Virus record (IMG/VR): IMGVR_UViG_3300020122_000238
Span: 1-64,000 of that record
Reading direction: 5' to 3' (one strand)
Source of the DNA: a virus
DNA length: 64,000 nt
In this document: positions 8,951 through 17,589 of the stretch, piece after piece
Position numbering within the stretch: the first letter of the stretch is position 1
Layout: each line of letters opens with the position of its first letter
Made by a program: the position numbers and the translations under genes
The notes under the pieces: generated by a model
Seen by the model: only the letters and a program-made list of their open reading frames with translations
The model's database searches: none
What the model was told of the DNA's origin: nothing

Positions 8951-9004
8951 TGGGTGCAACCATGCTGAAATGGCCCAACATTGGGGCACTCTAGGTTCCG
9001 AATC

Positions 9005-9658
9005 GTGATTGTTTTGGGCTTGGATCCGTCTTTGACTGCCCTGGGATGGTGTGTACACGACTCTGAGGCTGAAGGTCCTGAACGCATTGTTGGTCGAGGC
9101 TTGATCTCGACCGTCGCGAAGGACATCTTCGTTCAACGCTACATGACGCTTCGTGAGGGCGTGGGTGATCTGCTCGACAGATACTCCGCGATTGAAGCCG
9201 TGGGCGTGGAATCCCCTGCATTCGGAGAGCAGTGGTCTCCAGGGGCTTATGCCCTTTTCATCATGGTGAACGAGGCGATCTACACTCGACGCAAGGATGT
9301 GGTGTATTTCGATCCGGGCACTTTGAAAATGCTTACGAAGGTCGACCCCAAAATCAGATTGGGGAAGATGTTCAAAGCAGATATGGTGGACGCTGCCAAA
9401 GCGGACACTGGTCTCAAAGGGCGTATCACACATGATGAAGCAGATGCCTATCATGTGGCTCGGTTTGCCGCTCGTTTCTGGCTATTTCTCAAAGGGGCCA
9501 TCCTCGAAGACAGCCTATCTCCCGCAGAATATCAAGCATTCGCCAAGATACACACCTTCACAAAAGGGGATCGGGCGGGTCAGACGGTGATGCAGGGGGC
9601 GGCATTCAAAGAGAATCGTCGTTTCTTCCGCTTCTCTCAACTTGATACACCCAAGTAA
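9005..9658 (+). CDS. RuvC-like Holliday junction resolvase
   Basis: RNase H-fold nuclease that cuts four-way junctions. The four acidic residues are in place: Asp7 in VLGLDPSLTALGW, Glu69 in GVESPAFG, and Asp144 and Asp147 in THDEADAYHVA, the spacing of RuvC. GTG 9005 is chosen because it places the first Asp seven residues in, as in RuvC; TTG 8981 is in frame upstream. The gene is more AT-rich and has plainer codon use than its neighbours. It is followed directly by the HNH gene. Confidence 0.85.
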   Translation: MIVLGLDPSLTALGWCVHDSEAEGPERIVGRGLISTVAKDIFVQRYMTLREGVGDLLDRYSAIEAVGVESPAFGEQWSPGAYALFIMVNEAIYTRRKDVVYFDPGTLKMLTKVDPKIRLGKMFKADMVDAAKADTGLKGRITHDEADAYHVARFAARFWLFLKGAILEDSLSPAEYQAFAKIHTFTKGDRAGQTVMQGAAFKENRRFFRFSQLDTPK

Positions 9659-9681: not shown

Positions 9682-10116
9682 GTGAAGCCTCTGGCGTCTT
9701 TCTACGATCACCCTCGTACGAAATTGGGGGTGGGAGTCAACTGCAAGCAGTGCATCAGTGAGAAAGGCCGAGGAACATACGATCCTCAAAAAGGACGCGA
9801 TAGTTACCAGAGGCGCCGGACGAGTATTCTTCTTCGGGTGAAGAATACTCGTGATACTCGTAAACACGAGTACATAACTCTCCTCGGAGGGCGGTGTAGA
9901 GATTGTGGGATTGCCCCTGGTAGTGAGTGGCCTATTGACGTGTTCGATTTCCATCATCTTGGAGTAGAAGACAAGGATATGGAGATAGGTCACATGCTTT
10001 CAAAAAAGAACCAAGAACAAGTTCGAGCTGAAGTTCTGAAGTGTGTTTTGCTGTGTGCAACCTGTCATCGACGCAGACACGCATGGCCAAATTTCTCCCA
10101 ACTGGAGTCTAAATGA
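9682..10116 (+). CDS. HNH endonuclease, probably N-terminally truncated
   Basis: C-terminal HNH domain: CRDCG, DFHHLG and LLCATCHRRRH supply the metal and zinc ligands, as in free-standing phage homing endonucleases. A CKQC pair is near the N-terminus; its expected partner CKSC (codons 9664-9675) is in the same frame but upstream of the first possible start, GTG 9682, with a stop at 9643 and no ATG, GTG or TTG between. So the first zinc knuckle seems to be lost, or expression needs a non-standard start. It lies between resolvase and RecA genes in AT-richer DNA, as expected for an inserted element. Confidence 0.75.
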   Translation: MKPLASFYDHPRTKLGVGVNCKQCISEKGRGTYDPQKGRDSYQRRRTSILLRVKNTRDTRKHEYITLLGGRCRDCGIAPGSEWPIDVFDFHHLGVEDKDMEIGHMLSKKNQEQVRAEVLKCVLLCATCHRRRHAWPNFSQLESK

Positions 10117-11429
10117 CGACTGCGACGACCACGAAAGACAAGAAGGCCAAGGCTCCTGTTTCCTCTGCATCGGCAGTGGCGACCCTTGCCAGGGCCATGA
10201 TCCTCAAGACCACCAAGCAGCGGCCGATGACGGCCCAGCAAACGACTCTACCTCACGTTCCTTCGGGTTCGGTCATTCTCGACACGAGCATCGGGGGTTC
10301 GCGAACGGCAGATGGGAAGGGCTTCGTTTGCCCCGGTTACCCCCGGCGTCGCATCACGGAAATCTACGGTCCGGAGTCGAGTGGCAAGACGACGGTGGCT
10401 CTCACGGCCATCGCGAACGTCCAGAAGAATGGGGGGACGGCGATGTTTCTGGACTTCGAGCACGCCCTTCACCACGGCTACGCGAAGCAGATTGGGGTCC
10501 AGTTCGAAGACCTCCTTCTCTACGCTCCCGACACGATGGAAGATGGCTTCAAGATGATTCTTGTCGGCATCATGGCTGGCGTGGATATCATCGTCGTCGA
10601 CTCGGTCGCCTCGATGGTTCCTGCTCTGGAGTTGGAGAAGAAGATCGAGGACACCGCCAAGATCGGTGCGGTGGCGAAGAAGATGAGTGAGACCCTACCC
10701 AAGCTTGTCTTGTGGCTTGCCAAGTACCCGACGAAGGGGGCAGGGGAGAGCAAGATCTCTGACCCCGAGCGTCTCGGGACGGCCCTTATCCTGCTCAACC
10801 AGGAGCGAGCCACCATCAGCACGGGTGGTGGTCATGGTGCTCCTGAAGCCAACACGGCTGGAGGAAAGGCTCTCAAGTACTTCGCCTACGTTCGGCTGCG
10901 TCTCGCTCGGATTCTCTCCGAGCGTGTCGAGCGGAAGGACCCCGCCACGGGGAAGATCAAGAAGTATCCCTTTGGCAACCTCACCTCCGTGAAGGTCATC
11001 AAGGCAAAGGCCGACGCAAAGCAGGGACACGAAGCTACGATCTTCATTCGCTACGGCTTCGGGATCGACGACCTCTACAGCATCATCATGGCGGCTGAGG
11101 CCAACGGGATCATCAAGCGTGAGGGCTCGAAGTACACCTGTGCAGGCGAGTCCTTCATGGGGAAGGACAAGCTGCGCGCACACTTGATCGCCAACCCCAA
11201 GCTCGCAGCGGAGATCAAGGGGAAGGTTGTCGAGGCCATCTCTTCGGCAATCCCGACGGCGATCCCGGACGAGGATATCTCGGATGAGGACGCGATGCAG
11301 GCGGACCTCAGTGGCGAGCTGGGGGACGACGATGATGATGCGTCTGGGGGTGGGACGCAGGAAATCACGATCGACACTGACGATCCGATCATGGAAGATT
11401 CGGCCGAGGACGAGTCCGGCGGCGAATGA
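10113..11429 (+). CDS. recA: RecA-family recombinase
   Basis: Strand-exchange ATPase for phage recombination and repair. Walker A GPESSGKTT has Lys92; FLDFEHALHHGYA matches the RecA DxEHA(L)DP segment; Walker B is IIVVDSVASMVP; loop 2 is LNQERATISTGGG...TAGGKALKYFA. The C-terminal tail (about 385-438) is long, acidic and Ser/Gly rich, which in RecA proteins tempers DNA binding. Overlaps both neighbours by a few bases. Confidence 0.95.
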   Translation: MTTATTTKDKKAKAPVSSASAVATLARAMILKTTKQRPMTAQQTTLPHVPSGSVILDTSIGGSRTADGKGFVCPGYPRRRITEIYGPESSGKTTVALTAIANVQKNGGTAMFLDFEHALHHGYAKQIGVQFEDLLLYAPDTMEDGFKMILVGIMAGVDIIVVDSVASMVPALELEKKIEDTAKIGAVAKKMSETLPKLVLWLAKYPTKGAGESKISDPERLGTALILLNQERATISTGGGHGAPEANTAGGKALKYFAYVRLRLARILSERVERKDPATGKIKKYPFGNLTSVKVIKAKADAKQGHEATIFIRYGFGIDDLYSIIMAAEANGIIKREGSKYTCAGESFMGKDKLRAHLIANPKLAAEIKGKVVEAISSAIPTAIPDEDISDEDAMQADLSGELGDDDDDASGGGTQEITIDTDDPIMEDSAEDESGGE

Positions 11430-12649
11430 TCTCGGTCGAGGTCTGCAACTTTCAATCGATTGAGCGTGTTTCATTCCAGATTGACGGCTTCACAGCTCTT
11501 GTGGGCCGGTCGAACATCGGGAAGAGCGCGCTCATTCGAGCGATTCGTTGTGCTCTCACTGGAGCGCCCGTGGCGGCATTCGTCCGTCACGGGCGCTCTT
11601 GCGCCCGCAAGCTGAAGAAGCAGAAGACGTGCAAGTGCCATGTTTCTGTGCATCTCCAGTCTGTGGACTTCGATCTCCTTTGGGAGAAGGGCGATTCGAT
11701 CAATCGTTACGTCTTCAATGGAGCGGAGTATCCCGCCGCCGAACGAGGGATGCCGGACTTCCTGATTGCGACCTTCAACGAGGTCAAAGTGGGGGACAAG
11801 AACGTCCTCCTTCAGGTCTCCGATCAATTCAACCCCATCTTCCTTCTCGACCAATCCCCTGGTGTGGTCGCGGATGTCCTCTCGGACATGGCCAAGCTCG
11901 ATCAGGTCAATCTCGCCATGCGGATGGTCGAGAAGGACAGGAGGGAGGCTACGGCTACACGGAAGGTCAGGGAGAAGGACGTTATCGAGGCTACGGCCCA
12001 GCTTGCGTCGTATGACGGGCTCGACACAGCTCTTCGAGACGTCAAGACCGTCAAGACGAAGCTGGGGGTTGTCCAGGCGACTCAAGCCAAGGTCACACAG
12101 CTCGACTACTTCATTGACGGGCGAGCTGCTCTCGAATCGCGGGTGGCGAGTCTTGAGGGTGTGGTTGCTCAGGCACCCCCAAATCCAACGGAGCTACAGG
12201 AAGGTCAGAAGACCTTCTCTCTTCTCCAGAGGCTATGTCTCCAGAACGCCACCCGAAGGGCATCCCTGGCTTCTCTCGATGGGGTGAGCAAGATCGAGAT
12301 CCCGAGTGTGACGGATCTTCGGACCTTCGCGGAGGTCACCTTTCAGCTCCTCGAAGGGTGGATCACCCGCCTTCGAGGGTTCAAGGAGAGCATGGGTCGT
12401 CTCAAGGATGTAAAAACCCTTGAGATGCCTTCCCTTGCTTCGGTTCATGCCGCGCACAAAAAACACGAAAACCTGATCGACTTCGCGGGGGATTACGAGG
12501 TGACTCTTCGTAATATCGCCACTTTGGAACGGGGGTGCAGCCTCGTCTATCTGGAAGAAGAGGTCCTCAATCGGGAGTGGGCTGAGCTGGGTGTTTGTTC
12601 GACCTGTTCCCGTCCTTTTCATTCCGATTCTCATCTCGAACAGGTGTAG
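11426..12649 (+). CDS. Rad50/SbcC-like ATPase, N-terminal half
   Basis: Carries the front half of an SMC/Rad50-type ATPase: N-terminal strand MISVEVCNFQSI, Walker A GRSNIGKSALIRAI (residues 27-40), Q-loop region FLLDQSPG, then long coiled coil (about 155-385) ending in a CSTC zinc-hook-like motif (Cys391, Cys394), followed by a stop 13 residues later. The signature motif, Walker B and H-loop are absent here but present in the separate gene at 16376. Begins with an ATGA overlap on recA and is followed by its Mre11-type partner, so it should form the Rad50/Mre11 (gp46/gp47) nuclease complex. Confidence 0.85.
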   Translation: MISVEVCNFQSIERVSFQIDGFTALVGRSNIGKSALIRAIRCALTGAPVAAFVRHGRSCARKLKKQKTCKCHVSVHLQSVDFDLLWEKGDSINRYVFNGAEYPAAERGMPDFLIATFNEVKVGDKNVLLQVSDQFNPIFLLDQSPGVVADVLSDMAKLDQVNLAMRMVEKDRREATATRKVREKDVIEATAQLASYDGLDTALRDVKTVKTKLGVVQATQAKVTQLDYFIDGRAALESRVASLEGVVAQAPPNPTELQEGQKTFSLLQRLCLQNATRRASLASLDGVSKIEIPSVTDLRTFAEVTFQLLEGWITRLRGFKESMGRLKDVKTLEMPSLASVHAAHKKHENLIDFAGDYEVTLRNIATLERGCSLVYLEEEVLNREWAELGVCSTCSRPFHSDSHLEQV

Positions 12650-12660
12650 AGTGAGTGTGG

Positions 12661-13641
12661 ATGCCTCGACTATCCTTCCTTTTTAGGACCGACACCCACG
12701 TAGCGGATCGGAGCCCCGCGTCTTGGAAAGCAGACTACCCGTCGGAGATTTGGTCGAATCTCGAACAAATCGGGCAATTCGCGAAGAAGTTCGAGGTGAC
12801 GGCTGTACTCGACGGGGGGGACTTCTTTCACGTCAAGGCCGCAAGTCGGAATCCACATGGCCTGGTTGAGCGAGCTGCTCGGATCCATCAGGCCTACCCA
12901 TGCCCTGTGTGGTCCGTCGAGGGGAATCACGACATTGCCTACAACAACCTGGACACCCTGGCGAAGCAACCTCTCGGTGTGCTCCTAGCAACGGGGGTCT
13001 TCCACCATCTTCGAGAGCAGGTCTTTGAGGATGGTGGGGTTCGAGTACGGGTGGTGGGGGTTCCCTACAGCCCCCATCGAACCGTGGCGGAGCTGAAGAG
13101 GATCAAGAAGAAGCCGGGGGACGACTTCCTCATCGCTGTCGTTCACGCCCTCGCAGCTCAGGAACCACCCCCCAACGTCGAGGGCTTCTTCGGTGAGCCT
13201 GTCTTCCGGTACGGCGACCTCGTGACCGAGGATGGCCCGGATTCTTGGTGCTTCGGGCACTGGCACAAGGACCAGGGGATCGTGACCGTGGGGGGCAAGC
13301 AGTTCGTCAACCAAGGGGCTGTGAGCCGAGGGGCTCTCGTTAGAGAGAACACCTTGAGGACCCCCCAGGTGTCTCACATCGTGATCGAAAACGGTGTGCT
13401 TCGGATCTGGCCTGTCCCGCTGATCGTTGCCCCGGCGGAGGATGTCTTTGACATCGAACGCAAGGAACGAGAAGAGGCCGAAGACACGGCGATCGATGCC
13501 TTTGCAGCTCGTATCAAGGCCGACGCGATGTTCGATCCCTCCTTGGGGATCGAAGAATCACTGAATAGTCTTGACTATGCCCGTGATGTGCGTGATCTCG
13601 CACAGGGCTACTTGGAACGAGCGCGGGCGGAGGTTGGCTGA
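12661..13641 (+). CDS. SbcD/Mre11-type DNA exonuclease
   Basis: Calcineurin-like metallophosphoesterase subunit of the Rad50/Mre11 complex, which resects DNA ends. Metal-binding motifs in order: RTDTH (Asp11, His13), GGDFFH, GNHD (about 88-91), VHALA, and GHWHKDQ. About 326 residues is usual for the phage version. ATG 12661 is preferred over the in-frame GTG 12655. Its stop overlaps the next ATG (TGATG). Confidence 0.9.
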   Translation: MPRLSFLFRTDTHVADRSPASWKADYPSEIWSNLEQIGQFAKKFEVTAVLDGGDFFHVKAASRNPHGLVERAARIHQAYPCPVWSVEGNHDIAYNNLDTLAKQPLGVLLATGVFHHLREQVFEDGGVRVRVVGVPYSPHRTVAELKRIKKKPGDDFLIAVVHALAAQEPPPNVEGFFGEPVFRYGDLVTEDGPDSWCFGHWHKDQGIVTVGGKQFVNQGAVSRGALVRENTLRTPQVSHIVIENGVLRIWPVPLIVAPAEDVFDIERKEREEAEDTAIDAFAARIKADAMFDPSLGIEESLNSLDYARDVRDLAQGYLERARAEVG

Positions 13642-14546
13642 TGTATCTGTCGTATTCTGGGTTCAAATCGTACGACTCCTGTCCCAAGGCGTACTGGTAT
13701 CGCTACGTGGGCAAGACACCTCTCTCCGAACCGGAGAACAAGGTCAACTCCATCTACGGCAGCACGGTGGGCCGGCTCTTCGAGCTGTTCTACGCCAACC
13801 AGATCTGGAAGCAGTCGAACACAATCGAGACTCTTTTGGGGATGGTCGAGCCCGAGCTAGACGACACCATTCAGAAAGAGCGCCGGAACGGGGTCATCGA
13901 CTACACGGACAAGAGGTCGAACTACGCATCTCGGGATGCCCTGGTTGCGGACATCCGAGCGGCTATTCCCCGAGGGATTGCCATCATCAGGCACCACCGG
14001 CTGATCGGTGCTGATGCAGCGGCGGAGGTCAAGTACGACACGATGATCGAGGGGCACACGATTGGGGGTCGTGCTGATTTCGTTCTTCGTAGGGTTGCCC
14101 CCCACCGGGACCGAGTTCTACTCGATGGGAAGGGATCCCGGCATCGGGAGAAATACGTCGATGATCGCCAGCTCGTGTGGTACGCGATGCTTCATCGAAT
14201 TCGTCATGGATCTCCCCCCGATCGTTTGGGGTTCGTCTTCTGGCGGTATGAACCGGAGGAGAGTCTGGATTGGATCAACTTCACCGCGGCGGACCTCGAC
14301 GGGCTCCTTGCCCATGTCCTCAGCACGGTGCGGAAGATTGATGGGGGTATCAACACCCTCATCTCGGGGAGCAAGGAAGTCCAGAAACAAGTGATGGGGG
14401 ATGTGTTCCAGGCTCAACCTGGACAGGGCAAGTGCAAGCTCTGCTCCTATCTCGCAATCTGCCCTGAAGGCCAGAGCTTCACAGCGAAACATCAGATCCC
14501 CGTCTACGCTGGAGAGGGTGTAGAAGACGTGGGCATCGGGGATTGA
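13641..14546 (+). CDS. Cas4/RecB-like PD-(D/E)XK nuclease with iron-sulfur cysteines
   Basis: Exonuclease of the RecB/Cas4/AddB fold. Catalytic residues are Asp146 in GGRADFV and Asp162-Gly-Lys164 in LLDGKGSR, followed by the motif IV-like DDRQLVWYAM. One N-terminal cysteine (Cys14 in DSCPKAYWYRY) and three C-terminal (Cys265, 268, 274 in KCKLCSYLAICP) form the 4Fe-4S pattern of Cas4 and AddB. There is no CRISPR array nearby. The position inside a recombination operon, coupled to Mre11, argues for end processing. Confidence 0.88.
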   Translation: MYLSYSGFKSYDSCPKAYWYRYVGKTPLSEPENKVNSIYGSTVGRLFELFYANQIWKQSNTIETLLGMVEPELDDTIQKERRNGVIDYTDKRSNYASRDALVADIRAAIPRGIAIIRHHRLIGADAAAEVKYDTMIEGHTIGGRADFVLRRVAPHRDRVLLDGKGSRHREKYVDDRQLVWYAMLHRIRHGSPPDRLGFVFWRYEPEESLDWINFTAADLDGLLAHVLSTVRKIDGGINTLISGSKEVQKQVMGDVFQAQPGQGKCKLCSYLAICPEGQSFTAKHQIPVYAGEGVEDVGIGD

Positions 14547-14556
14547 AAGGACACGT

Positions 14557-14829
14557 ATGACTCCTGACGAGATCAAGAAGAAGATCGAGGACCTATCGAG
14601 GCGAACCGAAGTCGTCTCGAAGAAGAAGTCGCAGTACGAGGGGCAGCTCCAGAAGGTCAAGGAAGACCTCGCGGATCTGGTCACCGAGGTGAAGGCTGCG
14701 GGCTACGACCCCAAGACTCTCTCCGCCGAGAGGGACAAGGCGGAGGCAAGTCTCCTTCAGGAGATTGCCGAGTACGAGACCAAGTTGCTGGCCGTGGAGA
14801 CTTCCTTGGCCGGCTACGACAAGAAGTAA
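14557..14829 (+). CDS. Small coiled-coil protein, 90 aa
   Basis: Two helical segments (about 5-45 and 55-85) with heptads such as KKIEDLSRRTEVVSKKKSQY, broken by AAGYDPKTLS. No enzyme motif. It lies between the two halves of the Rad50-like ATPase, so it could be a structural piece of that complex or an unrelated coiled coil; sequence alone does not decide. Confidence 0.7.
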   Translation: MTPDEIKKKIEDLSRRTEVVSKKKSQYEGQLQKVKEDLADLVTEVKAAGYDPKTLSAERDKAEASLLQEIAEYETKLLAVETSLAGYDKK

Positions 14830-14851
14830 CGACTCCCAAAATGAGGATGGA

Positions 14852-16132
14852 ATGAAAATCACGCTCAAGCTCGCCGACCTGATCAAGGCCCTCGCCATCG
14901 TTTCGATCGTCCCCCCGCGTCCCCTGACCCCGGCGGGCGGGGCCGGCTACCTCTTCGTCATCCGAATGGGAGGCCTCTGCTCGATCTACTCCCGCGACGC
15001 TCTTCACGTTGCTCGCGCCACGATCTCCTGTGATGAGAAGGAGACCGAGGGGTCCTTCATCTTCCCCTCGGAGTTCACGAGTGGTTTCCGTTTCCTTCGG
15101 GATGACGACATCACGATCGAGTCCAAGGTGGACTCGGACAACTTCACGGTTTCCTGGAGCACGAACTCGGGAGCTGGGGCGGATCGCGCGAGCTTCGATC
15201 CGAAGCTCATGGCCTCGTGTGATCGGGATCTCGCCGGAGCCAAGGATGAACGCTCCTTCCCCGTGGGCCTATTCAAGGAGGCGATGACGCTGGCCAAGCC
15301 CTTCCTTGGGAAGGCCGACGACACGCGGATCCCGGAGCACTTCAAGACGCTCCAGCTCTTCGACAAGTCCAAGCCCGAGTGGGAGAAGGGTTCCGGGCAT
15401 CTCTTCGCTGCGAACACCTTCCAGGCGTTCTGGTTCTACAGCGCTGCCTTTGTCGACAAGGGGTTCTCGATCCACGTCCAGCACATGTCCTTCTTCACAA
15501 GCTTCCTCGCGAAGTCGGATGGAGAGGTGAAGCTCCTGACGGGCGACAACATGATCTTCGCCGTCGACTCCAAGGGGAACGCGCTCGGGTGGGCGAAGCA
15601 CGAGTCCGTTCACGGGAAGTTCTCCTACTACTCGAAGGCGATGGACAAGCTCATCCTCGGGCTCCCCAAGTCGCTGACGGTGGACGCGCTCCGCTTCATG
15701 CGCTCAGAGCTGGATTCCAAGGAAGACAAGATCACTCTGGTCGTCAACGAGTTCCGTGACGTCGAGGTGGGCGAGAAGGTGCAACGCCAAGCAACGATGC
15801 TCTTCCGAGTGGCCGAGACGAAGGGCAAGGCTCGGAGCTTCCCGCTCCCGGCTGTCGTCATCGACGGCTCCGAGGAGCAAGAGATCACCTTCAACGTCAA
15901 CATCGACCGGCTCATCGACCTCATCGACGGCGTGAAGGGCATGGACGTCCAGCTTCGGATCGCGGTCATCAAGGCCGACGACAAGTCCCCCAAGGAACGG
16001 GCCATGTTCCGCACTATCGACGAGTTCCTCATGGACGACAACGGCAAGGTGGTCGGGGACATCACGGCGGAAAACCGGCCGGAAGGGTCGCACGAGTGCC
16101 GCGTAACCAGGTACATGCCCTCGAAGGACTGA
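14852..16132 (+). CDS. DnaN-like DNA sliding clamp
   Basis: 426 residues beginning MKITLKLADLIKALAIVS, the opening strand and helix of beta-type clamps. Later strands and short helices fit three clamp-like repeats, and the length is close to a bacterial beta clamp (about 370). ATG 14852 is preceded by gagga at good spacing. A DnaX-like loader gene at 19620 supports the call. Sequence identity to cellular DnaN looks low, so the family assignment rests on the N-terminus, length and context. Confidence 0.65.
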   Translation: MKITLKLADLIKALAIVSIVPPRPLTPAGGAGYLFVIRMGGLCSIYSRDALHVARATISCDEKETEGSFIFPSEFTSGFRFLRDDDITIESKVDSDNFTVSWSTNSGAGADRASFDPKLMASCDRDLAGAKDERSFPVGLFKEAMTLAKPFLGKADDTRIPEHFKTLQLFDKSKPEWEKGSGHLFAANTFQAFWFYSAAFVDKGFSIHVQHMSFFTSFLAKSDGEVKLLTGDNMIFAVDSKGNALGWAKHESVHGKFSYYSKAMDKLILGLPKSLTVDALRFMRSELDSKEDKITLVVNEFRDVEVGEKVQRQATMLFRVAETKGKARSFPLPAVVIDGSEEQEITFNVNIDRLIDLIDGVKGMDVQLRIAVIKADDKSPKERAMFRTIDEFLMDDNGKVVGDITAENRPEGSHECRVTRYMPSKD

Positions 16133-16134
16133 CC

Positions 16135-16371
16135 ATGCTTGTACGACCTAAATTGTGGCTTGAGGCGGAACGCATTACGACTGCGAAACAAGCGTCAAAA
16201 GTCACGATTCTTCCCCAAGTCATTGGCCCGCGGGGTTGGTCTGGTTTTGTTGGGGACTGGATCATCACGGCTCCGAATGGGGATACTTTCATTCGCCCAG
16301 ATGCCACTTTTGCAAAGGACTACGAGGTCAAGCATTGGTGGGATTTGTTGACCAAGGTGTGGGGGTTCTAG
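16135..16371 (+). CDS. Small PGDYG-like protein, 78 aa
   Basis: Contains FVGDWIITAPNGDTFIRP and a following F-x-Y element, like the small PGDYG family found in phages and bacteria, whose role is unknown. Two bases separate its ATG from the clamp stop. Slightly AT-richer than the clamp gene. Confidence 0.6.
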   Translation: MLVRPKLWLEAERITTAKQASKVTILPQVIGPRGWSGFVGDWIITAPNGDTFIRPDATFAKDYEVKHWWDLLTKVWGF

Positions 16372-16375
16372 AAGC

Positions 16376-17035
16376 ATGAAAGACTGGGCTGCGAGGACTG
16401 AAGCTCTCGCATTGAAAGCAGCTCGTCTCCAGGCCCTCCGCGATCAAAAGCGGGCGGATCTGGAGTCGAAAAGCGCGGAAGTGACGGCTCTCTCGGCCCA
16501 GATCGAGAAGCTCTTCAAGGTGGGGGAGCTTCTCCGCATCCTTTTGGACAAGCTCGTCACGGACAGGGTTCGGACCCTGGAGGCTCTTGTCTCTGAGGGT
16601 CTGAAGACCATCTTCTTCGATCAGAAGCTCTCGTTCGAGGCAGCGATCGGACAGGCTCGGAACAGGGTCTCCATCGACTTCTTCATTCGTCAGGGAGACG
16701 AAGAGGCCGGCGTTCGTGGGCATCCCCTTGATTCTTTTGGGGGTGGTCCTGCGAGTATCGTTTCCTTGATTCTCCGTCTCCTTCTACTCCTCCGCTTGAA
16801 GCGGTTCCCCGTGCTCCTACTCGACGAGACGCTTGCGGCAGTCTCGGATGAGTACGTGGATGCAGCCGGACGTTTCCTTCAACGTCTCGCGGAATCGACC
16901 AACATCGACATTTTGTTTGTCACCCATAAGCAAGCCTTCCTCGAACACGCGAACATCGCGTACCAAGGATCTGAAGAGCTGGGTGCGGATGAGACGACGT
17001 GGCTAGACATTCGCCGCCTTCGGAGTCATCGGTGA
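16376..17035 (+). CDS. Rad50/SbcC-like ATPase, C-terminal half
   Basis: 219 residues that supply what the gene at 11426 lacks: an N-terminal coiled coil (5-48), the ABC signature SFGGGPAS (120-127), Walker B PVLLLDETLAAVSDEY (145-160, catalytic Glu151), and the H-loop FVTHKQ (His194). No Walker A is present, so alone it cannot be a working ATPase. It begins as a returning coiled coil would after a zinc hook. Ends in a GTGA overlap with the next gene. Confidence 0.85.
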   Translation: MKDWAARTEALALKAARLQALRDQKRADLESKSAEVTALSAQIEKLFKVGELLRILLDKLVTDRVRTLEALVSEGLKTIFFDQKLSFEAAIGQARNRVSIDFFIRQGDEEAGVRGHPLDSFGGGPASIVSLILRLLLLLRLKRFPVLLLDETLAAVSDEYVDAAGRFLQRLAESTNIDILFVTHKQAFLEHANIAYQGSEELGADETTWLDIRRLRSHR

Positions 17036-17589
17036 GAACGCAATCTGAAATCATCGGTCGCATTCGTTTCCTGCTTGTGAAGGAGCTGGAGGATCGTGTG
17101 ACGGCTGCCAGGGAGAGGTTGCCCCACCGCTGCATGTACAACTACAGGCAACCCCTCGATGTTCGTCGAACTATCGACGACGAGCCCAACCCGAACTACA
17201 ACCGAATCACGATGGGGTCTGGGCTTGGGGGGCGCCACCTTCCCGTCCTTCAGACCATCGGTCTCTGCATGTACGGGGTCGAGGACATCATCTCCGCCGA
17301 GATCCGGATCTGTGAGGATCCCTCGGATGCACAGCAGTGTCCCTTGTTCGAGCCCACCCTCAACAAGCACCAGTTGTGGACGGAGTACGCGGAACAGATC
17401 GATAGTCCTGATTGGTTGCGAGAGAACATGCCCGAGGTTCACGGCCTCGCGTGGGCCCTGGGAGATGGAATGCCTCGGATCCCTTGGTGGGCACGTCTGT
17501 GGTTCCGCCTGACTCAGATTCGACCGGAGCCCATTCGAATCCCTACCGATCTCGTGAAGTACCTCCCGGACCCCAGCTCCCTGCAATGA
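17032..17589 (+). CDS. Hypothetical protein, 185 aa
   Basis: GTG 17032 overlaps the previous stop. N-terminal helix (IIGRIRFLLVKELEDRVTAA) followed by a domain with several Cys (CMYNYRQPLD, GLCMYGVEDI, ICEDPSDAQQCPLF) that are not spaced as a standard zinc finger. Unrecognised; co-directional within the recombination operon. Confidence 0.7.
   Translation: MRTQSEIIGRIRFLLVKELEDRVTAARERLPHRCMYNYRQPLDVRRTIDDEPNPNYNRITMGSGLGGRHLPVLQTIGLCMYGVEDIISAEIRICEDPSDAQQCPLFEPTLNKHQLWTEYAEQIDSPDWLRENMPEVHGLAWALGDGMPRIPWWARLWFRLTQIRPEPIRIPTDLVKYLPDPSSLQ

Follow-up and report, generated by a model that had tools for sequence, protein, structure and literature searches.

A Rad50-type ATPase encoded as separate chains cut at the zinc hook, with a proposed third subunit, in jumbo phages and Bacillota

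The DNA examined here (the window) comprises the first 64 kb of the 275,300-base virus record IMGVR_UViG_3300020122_000238 and encodes a Rad50-type ATPase whose head halves reside on two separate genes of the + strand, Rad50-N (407 amino acids, 11426..12649) and Rad50-C (219 amino acids, 16376..17035), which are 3,727 bases apart. The N-terminal ATPase lobe, a long helical arm and a C-terminal zinc hook are carried by Rad50-N, and a short returning arm followed by the C-terminal ATPase lobe by Rad50-C. Between them are encoded an Mre11/SbcD-like nuclease (12655..13641, +; PF00149 8e-10, PHROG 100 4e-8), whose gene adjoins Rad50-N and is likewise found near it in relatives, and a coiled-coil hairpin of 90 residues with Gly-x-Asp-Pro conserved at its turn, designated K (14557..14829, +) and proposed to be a third Rad50 subunit. 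We consider it probable that these products would assemble into an Mre11-Rad50 DNA-end-processing complex with a Rad50 made of three chains, N, K and C. Since it lacks both the one-chain layout and the canonical signature motif of Rad50, the system is filed as a distinct split branch predicted from its sequences to work like Rad50 and not as canonical Rad50. A sequence-only reading of the window had proposed a Rad50-type ATPase cut at the hook into two genes 3.7 kb apart, whose two products make up one Rad50, and this proposal is supported by both open reading frames (ORFs), the partition of motifs between them, its recurrence in 76 clusters of loci, profile and fold matches to the separate chains of Pyrococcus Rad50 and the lack of a one-chain SbcC in the window's own record and 44 related ones.

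As that reading had it, the first gene contains a Walker A motif, a coiled-coil arm and a CSTC hook and then stops. The Walker A motif GRSNIGKS (residues 27-34, 11504..11527, +) has G27, G32 and K33 conserved in 56/56 relatives, the Q-loop residue Q134 is kept in 55/56 relatives of the N alignment, and the CSTC motif (residues 391-394, 12596..12607, +) is situated 13 residues before the C-terminus, with the stop after residue 407. Such a CxxC is located 4-24 residues (median 11) from the end in 95/97 N chains, the exceptions being phage Magritte and record G038, which belong to one clade; this near-universal terminal position means that the hook in the window is not placed there by chance. When searched directly, Rad50-N matches Pfam AAA_15/AAA_23 at 3e-6 to 3e-5, which is under the Pfam cut-offs, and PHROG 16465, labelled 'exonuclease', at 3.5e-18. 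Using a profile of 56 N chains against the PDB, Rad50 heads were among the best matches (8e-9 to 1e-7, with 5f3w at 8e-9), the N-terminal chains 1ii8_A, 1f2t_A and 3qkr_A of Pyrococcus Rad50 crystals were matched as well, and the final 60 positions matched the Rad50 zinc-hook structures 1l8d (5-62 of 112) and 6zff at 4e-4. The AlphaFold2 (AF2) model of Rad50-N, like that of Rad50-C based on alignments built without rows from the phage collection, has a predicted local distance difference test (pLDDT) score of 83, matches 9a9j_A with Z 11.0 and 1f2u_A with Z 10.8, and contains a mostly helical arm of ~230 residues. In two relatives, Rad50-N (L062:4609-6729 and L090:7755-10001) is broken exactly within Walker A (GK|T) by ~340 intein-like residues.

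Rad50-C supplies the complementary half of the head. Its Walker B motif LLLLDE (LLLDE being residues 147-151, 16814..16828, +) has D150 and E151 in 53/53 relatives, and the H-loop residue H184 is kept in 52/53 relatives of the C alignment, so that the Walker B and H-loop predicted for the second gene are both present. The predicted returning coiled coil is also found, albeit short, since the AF2 model shows, ahead of Walker B and the H-loop, a single 78-residue helix of which ~55 residues form the arm. The signature motif, claimed as well, is altered and not canonical: its position (residues 121-125, 16736..16750, +) reads FGGGP and the canonical Ser is missing. Rad50-C matches SMC_N at 1e-4 and PHROG 15167, labelled 'ATPase', at 2e-18. 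With a 53-chain C profile, the best PDB match is the P. furiosus Rad50 C-terminal chain 3qkr_B (7e-10), and 1ii8_B and 1f2t_B are also matched. The AF2 model (pLDDT 94) resembles the P. furiosus Rad50 C chain 9a9j_B with Z 13.2 and 1f2u_B with Z 12.8. Catalytic residues of N and C are invariant across proteins down to 19-25% identity.

The same division was encountered throughout the relatives. IMG/VR was scanned with Mre11 and with Rad50-C, giving 80 loci (L011-L090) plus some ten others, and profile scans yielded 81 non-redundant loci in which each half has an ORF of its own; all such loci, when clustered at 90% C identity, gave 76 clusters. N and C are separate genes in 76/76 clusters, hence the one-chain feature of Rad50/SbcC is absent from all of them. 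The gene order RuvC-RecA-N-Mre11-PDDEXK-K-clamp-C is observed in most jumbo-phage loci (44 loci), and five deposited phages, LR745208, Magritte, Tunturi_5, vB_BboS-125 and Mvi-JY20, also contain both halves as separate genes, with the halves ~107 kb apart in Tunturi_5 and 40-93 kb apart in Magritte. Two separate PHROG families, the 16465 and 15167 mentioned above, already cover the halves. Judged from these sequences, the split is an old and conserved arrangement and not peculiar to the window phage. An ordinary one-chain Rad50 might still arise if the halves were joined after transcription or translation, by protein trans-splicing, a trans-spliced intron or recoding, and inteins probably do occur in this family, given the interrupted Walker A in the two relatives described above. 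However, N extends only 4-24 residues beyond its hook, no intein-like sequence is present at the start of C, and the halves are separated by several complete genes or by up to ~107 kb. Furthermore, in a rough test Shine-Dalgarno-like motifs precede K in 75/81 loci and C in 54/81, as compared to 29% at random positions. Such joining is thus hardly credible.

The prediction that no second complete SbcC would be found was borne out: in the window's own 275-kb record, which is possibly incomplete, AAA_23 matches only Rad50-N and PHROG 77 gives no match. Likewise, the 44 related whole records contain no AAA_23 frame of more than 503 amino acids and therefore no one-chain SbcC. Rad50-C was found in 16/16 records checked. 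These observations bear on the idea that the halves are decaying remnants or parts of different complexes, for example C a regulator and N a DNA tether, which would agree with the degenerate signature motif and with the large distance that sometimes separates N and C in the genome. It is nevertheless very improbable, since the catalytic residues are invariant at such low identity, C is retained in every record checked and the set occurs in genomes otherwise lacking SbcC. A joined version had also been sought, and joined relatives do exist, but only as three Bacillota Mre11-Rad50 fusions (L155, L156 and L157) of 684-700 amino acids without arm, hook or a K gene of their own; a joined hook-bearing form did not appear. 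By profile these fusions belong to the present family, with Mre11 and Rad50 in one chain there and on separate genes in the window. In the midpoint-rooted C tree, jumbo phages including the window lie on one side and Bacillota on the other, the fusions nesting within the Bacillota side, with support of 0.73 and 0.94 at the nodes enclosing them. This nesting inside the split Bacillota side makes the fusion look secondary to the split.

The split form is also present on bacterial chromosomes. Of 398 evenly sampled Bacillota genomes scanned for the C family, 67 were positive, with frames of ~155-314 amino acids in all but four, and 17 of the 20 loci examined in full are split. Nine of these 17 are flanked by recA and rny, in most cases followed by ymdB, in an ordinary chromosomal neighbourhood with the order recA - Mre11 - Rad50N - K - Rad50C - rny (L158-L164, L166, L168). 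That all Bacillota loci are prophages is accordingly wrong for at least these nine with their recA, rny and mostly ymdB flanks; other loci (Paenibacillus, Sutcliffiella) adjoin an integrase and are prophage-like. Using family TIGR00618 at 1e-15 as the test for one-chain SbcC, a match was obtained in 0/40 split-carrying Bacillota genomes versus 18/40 others (Fisher 6e-7, the p-value being inflated as the genomes are kin). With the earlier set added to the phylum sample, matches were seen in 2/51 split-carrying genomes versus the same 18/40 (3.5e-6, with p again inflated by kinship). None of the nine recA-rny genomes contains a full SbcC-like frame, though a divergent SbcC could escape detection by TIGR00618. 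On the simplest reading, SbcCD would be replaced in these Bacillota by the split complex. In one recA-rny locus (L168:3344-4647), Rad50-N is found in two ORFs of 109 and 280 amino acids, indicating a frameshift or decay.

K is 75-97 residues long in the aligned set and is predicted from its sequence pattern to form two helices that flank a nearly invariant Pro, usually within Gly-x-Asp-Pro. In 76/76 clusters its gene lies between those of N and C, all three on one strand, and K is undetected in the records of the hook-less N chains (Magritte and G038). Very probably, K is a third component of the Rad50. Its presence in all split loci and its absence with hook-less N chains and with arm-less fusions further suggest that K serves the arm or the hook and would act together with them. 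A candidate assignment of K as a GapR-like DNA-binding protein was rejected, as window K matches PF10073 at 0.0049, below the cut-off, and PF10073 is not one of the families to which several K members match.

Several observations weigh against a three-chain Rad50. Searches of solved structures and families with K gave generic coiled coils only and no specific homology; G039 carries the hook, yet K was not found in its 108-kb fragment; and the C arm (~55 residues) plus K (~80) fall far short of the N arm in length, which makes a classical two-stranded arm no simple fit. The canonical LSGGE-type signature is absent: in the hidden Markov model alignment, P. furiosus Rad50 Ser793 aligns with Gly122, which is invariant in 53/53 relatives, and the window Rad50-C lacks both the canonical Ser and Glu, an alternative alignment register placing F/Y/R/H/N at the Ser793 position. 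In P. furiosus Rad50, the S793R substitution blocks ATP binding and ATP-dependent dimerisation (PMC7247530). Possibly Gly is tolerated at the signature Ser; alternatively, the ATP sandwich or ATP cycle may differ. Heads of cohesin and RecF also come close to the Rad50-N model in score, so that fold alone cannot separate Rad50 from its superfamily; the distinction comes from the hook, the Mre11 partner and the profiles. The genomes behind the 0/40 versus 18/40 comparison are phylogenetically non-independent and of uncertain completeness. Among these points, the lack of specific homology of K to any arm or mediator and the hook-bearing G039 would suit a Rad50 of two chains only, with N, C and Mre11 forming the head and K a neighbour with a different role, for instance that of a RecA-loading recombination mediator or a clamp adaptor, and the location of K between nuclease and clamp genes in the jumbo-phage cassette fits this as well. 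However, K persists between N and C in every cluster, even where clamp and PD-(D/E)XK genes are both absent from the vicinity, the Bacillota N-K-C loci being an example, and it is missing from the arm-less fusions and alongside hook-less N chains, which makes the two-chain alternative unlikely.

In the three-chain reading, Rad50-N and Rad50-C would pair non-covalently into one ATP-binding cassette-type head, with N contributing Walker A and the Q-loop and C the signature region, Walker B and the H-loop, and two such heads would dimerise over ATP on an Mre11 dimer. The N chain would extend as a long helical arm, whose terminal CxxC joins a second hook through a shared Zn, while K might replace the missing returning strand or brace the arm and hook. 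Such a complex would serve to trim DNA ends, handing the cut ends to the adjacent RecA, and an arm that is not covalently closed at the hook could provide an extra opening gate. For this machine we infer the contacts between N and C and those of K, the bridging by Zn, the nuclease function and the opening gate. A hook placed at the end of a chain is chemically plausible, because a 4-residue hook peptide suffices to form the Zn dimer Zn(Hk4)2 (PMC5093744); the Zn(Cys2)2 core contributes -20.4 kcal/mol, versus -5.8 for the hairpin and -2.1 for the coiled coil (PMC5093744). More broadly, the chances seem even that three-chain Rad50 is an ancient and widespread branch of Mre11-Rad50, which some Bacillota keep between recA and rny as their own complex in place of SbcC and which jumbo phages carry as the same machine, with a hook-open arm that lets N, K and C part and the ring open.

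Compared with known systems, the resemblance to Rad50/SbcC with Mre11/SbcD lies in the head halves by profile and fold, the CxxC hook and the Mre11 encoded alongside, whereas the window family differs in its two chains cut just after the hook, a constant third coiled-coil gene, a very short returning arm and the change of signature Ser to Gly. As in the P. furiosus Rad50 head (1f2t/1f2u, 1ii8, 3qkr), separate N- and C-terminal chains form the head, and each of the natural halves matches its counterpart chain; unlike those crystals, which are of a laboratory construct without full arms or hook, the partition here is natural, and arm and hook stay on N. Phage SbcC of PHROG 77 is in contrast one chain, and its profile is tiled by the N (301-748) and C (741-955) chains of relatives. 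Phage T4 gp46/gp47 is a phage-encoded Rad50-Mre11 pair beside recombination genes, as is the case here. T4 Rad50 retains the signature Ser471 (PMC7247530), unlike the Gly of the window family. Mre11-Rad50 fusions (SbcDC; Mimivirus R555 type) represent an unusual Rad50 chain architecture spread by viruses, and the one of Bacillus phage 0305phi8-36 is reported without one P-loop segment (PMC3175470). In the fusions the rearrangement is the opposite of the split, with Mre11 and the two Rad50 lobes joined into a single chain of ~690 amino acids without arm, hook or K. A likeness is also found to the defence ATPases LmuB (Lamassu) and mad3, as some family members match with both halves, for example those of Bacillota locus L158 to LmuB at 9e-17 and 6e-13, and window Rad50-C matches mad3 at 5e-9; these are, however, single-chain defence proteins, while the partner here is Mre11 and the location is beside recA. 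LmuB also did not outscore Rad50, which the L158 N half matches at 2.7e-24, and the match of window Rad50-N to LmuB (4.8e-4) covers 44 residues. No published split Rad50 or SbcC was found in the open-access literature, subscription papers lying beyond reach of the search. A jumbo-phage survey describes SbcC/SbcD as near universal, and its passages that name SbcC or Rad50 are silent on any split (PMC7824862).

As the two halves of the head, the hook-bearing arm and the small arm protein are encoded apart here, any one of them can be removed, swapped or titrated, and the communication between hook, arm and head and the need for ring opening, which are hard to test in a one-chain Rad50, come within reach. 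A widely conserved repair machine would be seen to tolerate, and repeatedly keep, a cut at its most distinctive structure. Should the split form be the true sole Mre11-Rad50 of some bacteria, annotation pipelines based on SbcC score those organisms as lacking the complex.

The genes of the run all lie on the + strand, in the order RuvC-like resolvase, HNH, RecA, Rad50-N, Mre11, PD-(D/E)XK nuclease, K, clamp, a 91-residue ORF and Rad50-C. A RuvC-like Holliday junction resolvase (8981..9658, +; PHROG 159 1.5e-12) opens the conserved cassette, whose order is kept in relatives, and an HNH endonuclease-like ORF (window 9682-10116), possibly a homing endonuclease, separates it from the RecA/UvsX-like recombinase gene (10113..11429, +; PF00154 1.3e-47, PHROG 97 6e-55), whose stop overlaps the Rad50-N start. 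Mre11, a Cas4-like nuclease, a small coiled coil and the clamp had been placed between the halves, and all four were recovered: besides Mre11 and K, these are a PD-(D/E)XK nuclease of Cas4/AddB type with a C-terminal CxxC...C (13641..14546, +; PF12705 1.2e-15) and a sliding clamp-like DNA polymerase processivity factor (14852..16132, +; PHROG 947 4e-4), which occupies the same position in relatives and for which ATG 14852 is the better start placement. The 'PGDYG-like' label given to the 91-residue ORF (16096..16371, +) found no backing, as this ORF has no Pfam match and belongs to no family. It is absent between clamp and Rad50-C in L002/L003, relatives of 97% identity whose clamp-C gap is only 30 bases; it is either a recent insertion or was lost in L002/L003, and given its absence at the same place there it is probably outside the Rad50 system. 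Two Mre11 ORFs of relatives (L081:9803-12130 and L082:9998-12232, 744-775 amino acids) have a family match interrupted near residue 200, which points to an intein. In vB_BboS-125, an AP2-domain protein, gp33 (L008:11032-11604), is placed between Rad50-N and K, and its Mre11 (L008:12872-13852) carries no annotation in the record. In the 485-kb phage LR745208, Rad50-C is closely followed by two TnpB/OrfB-like ORFs with zinc-ribbon motifs (L005:14971-15681 and 15774-17210).

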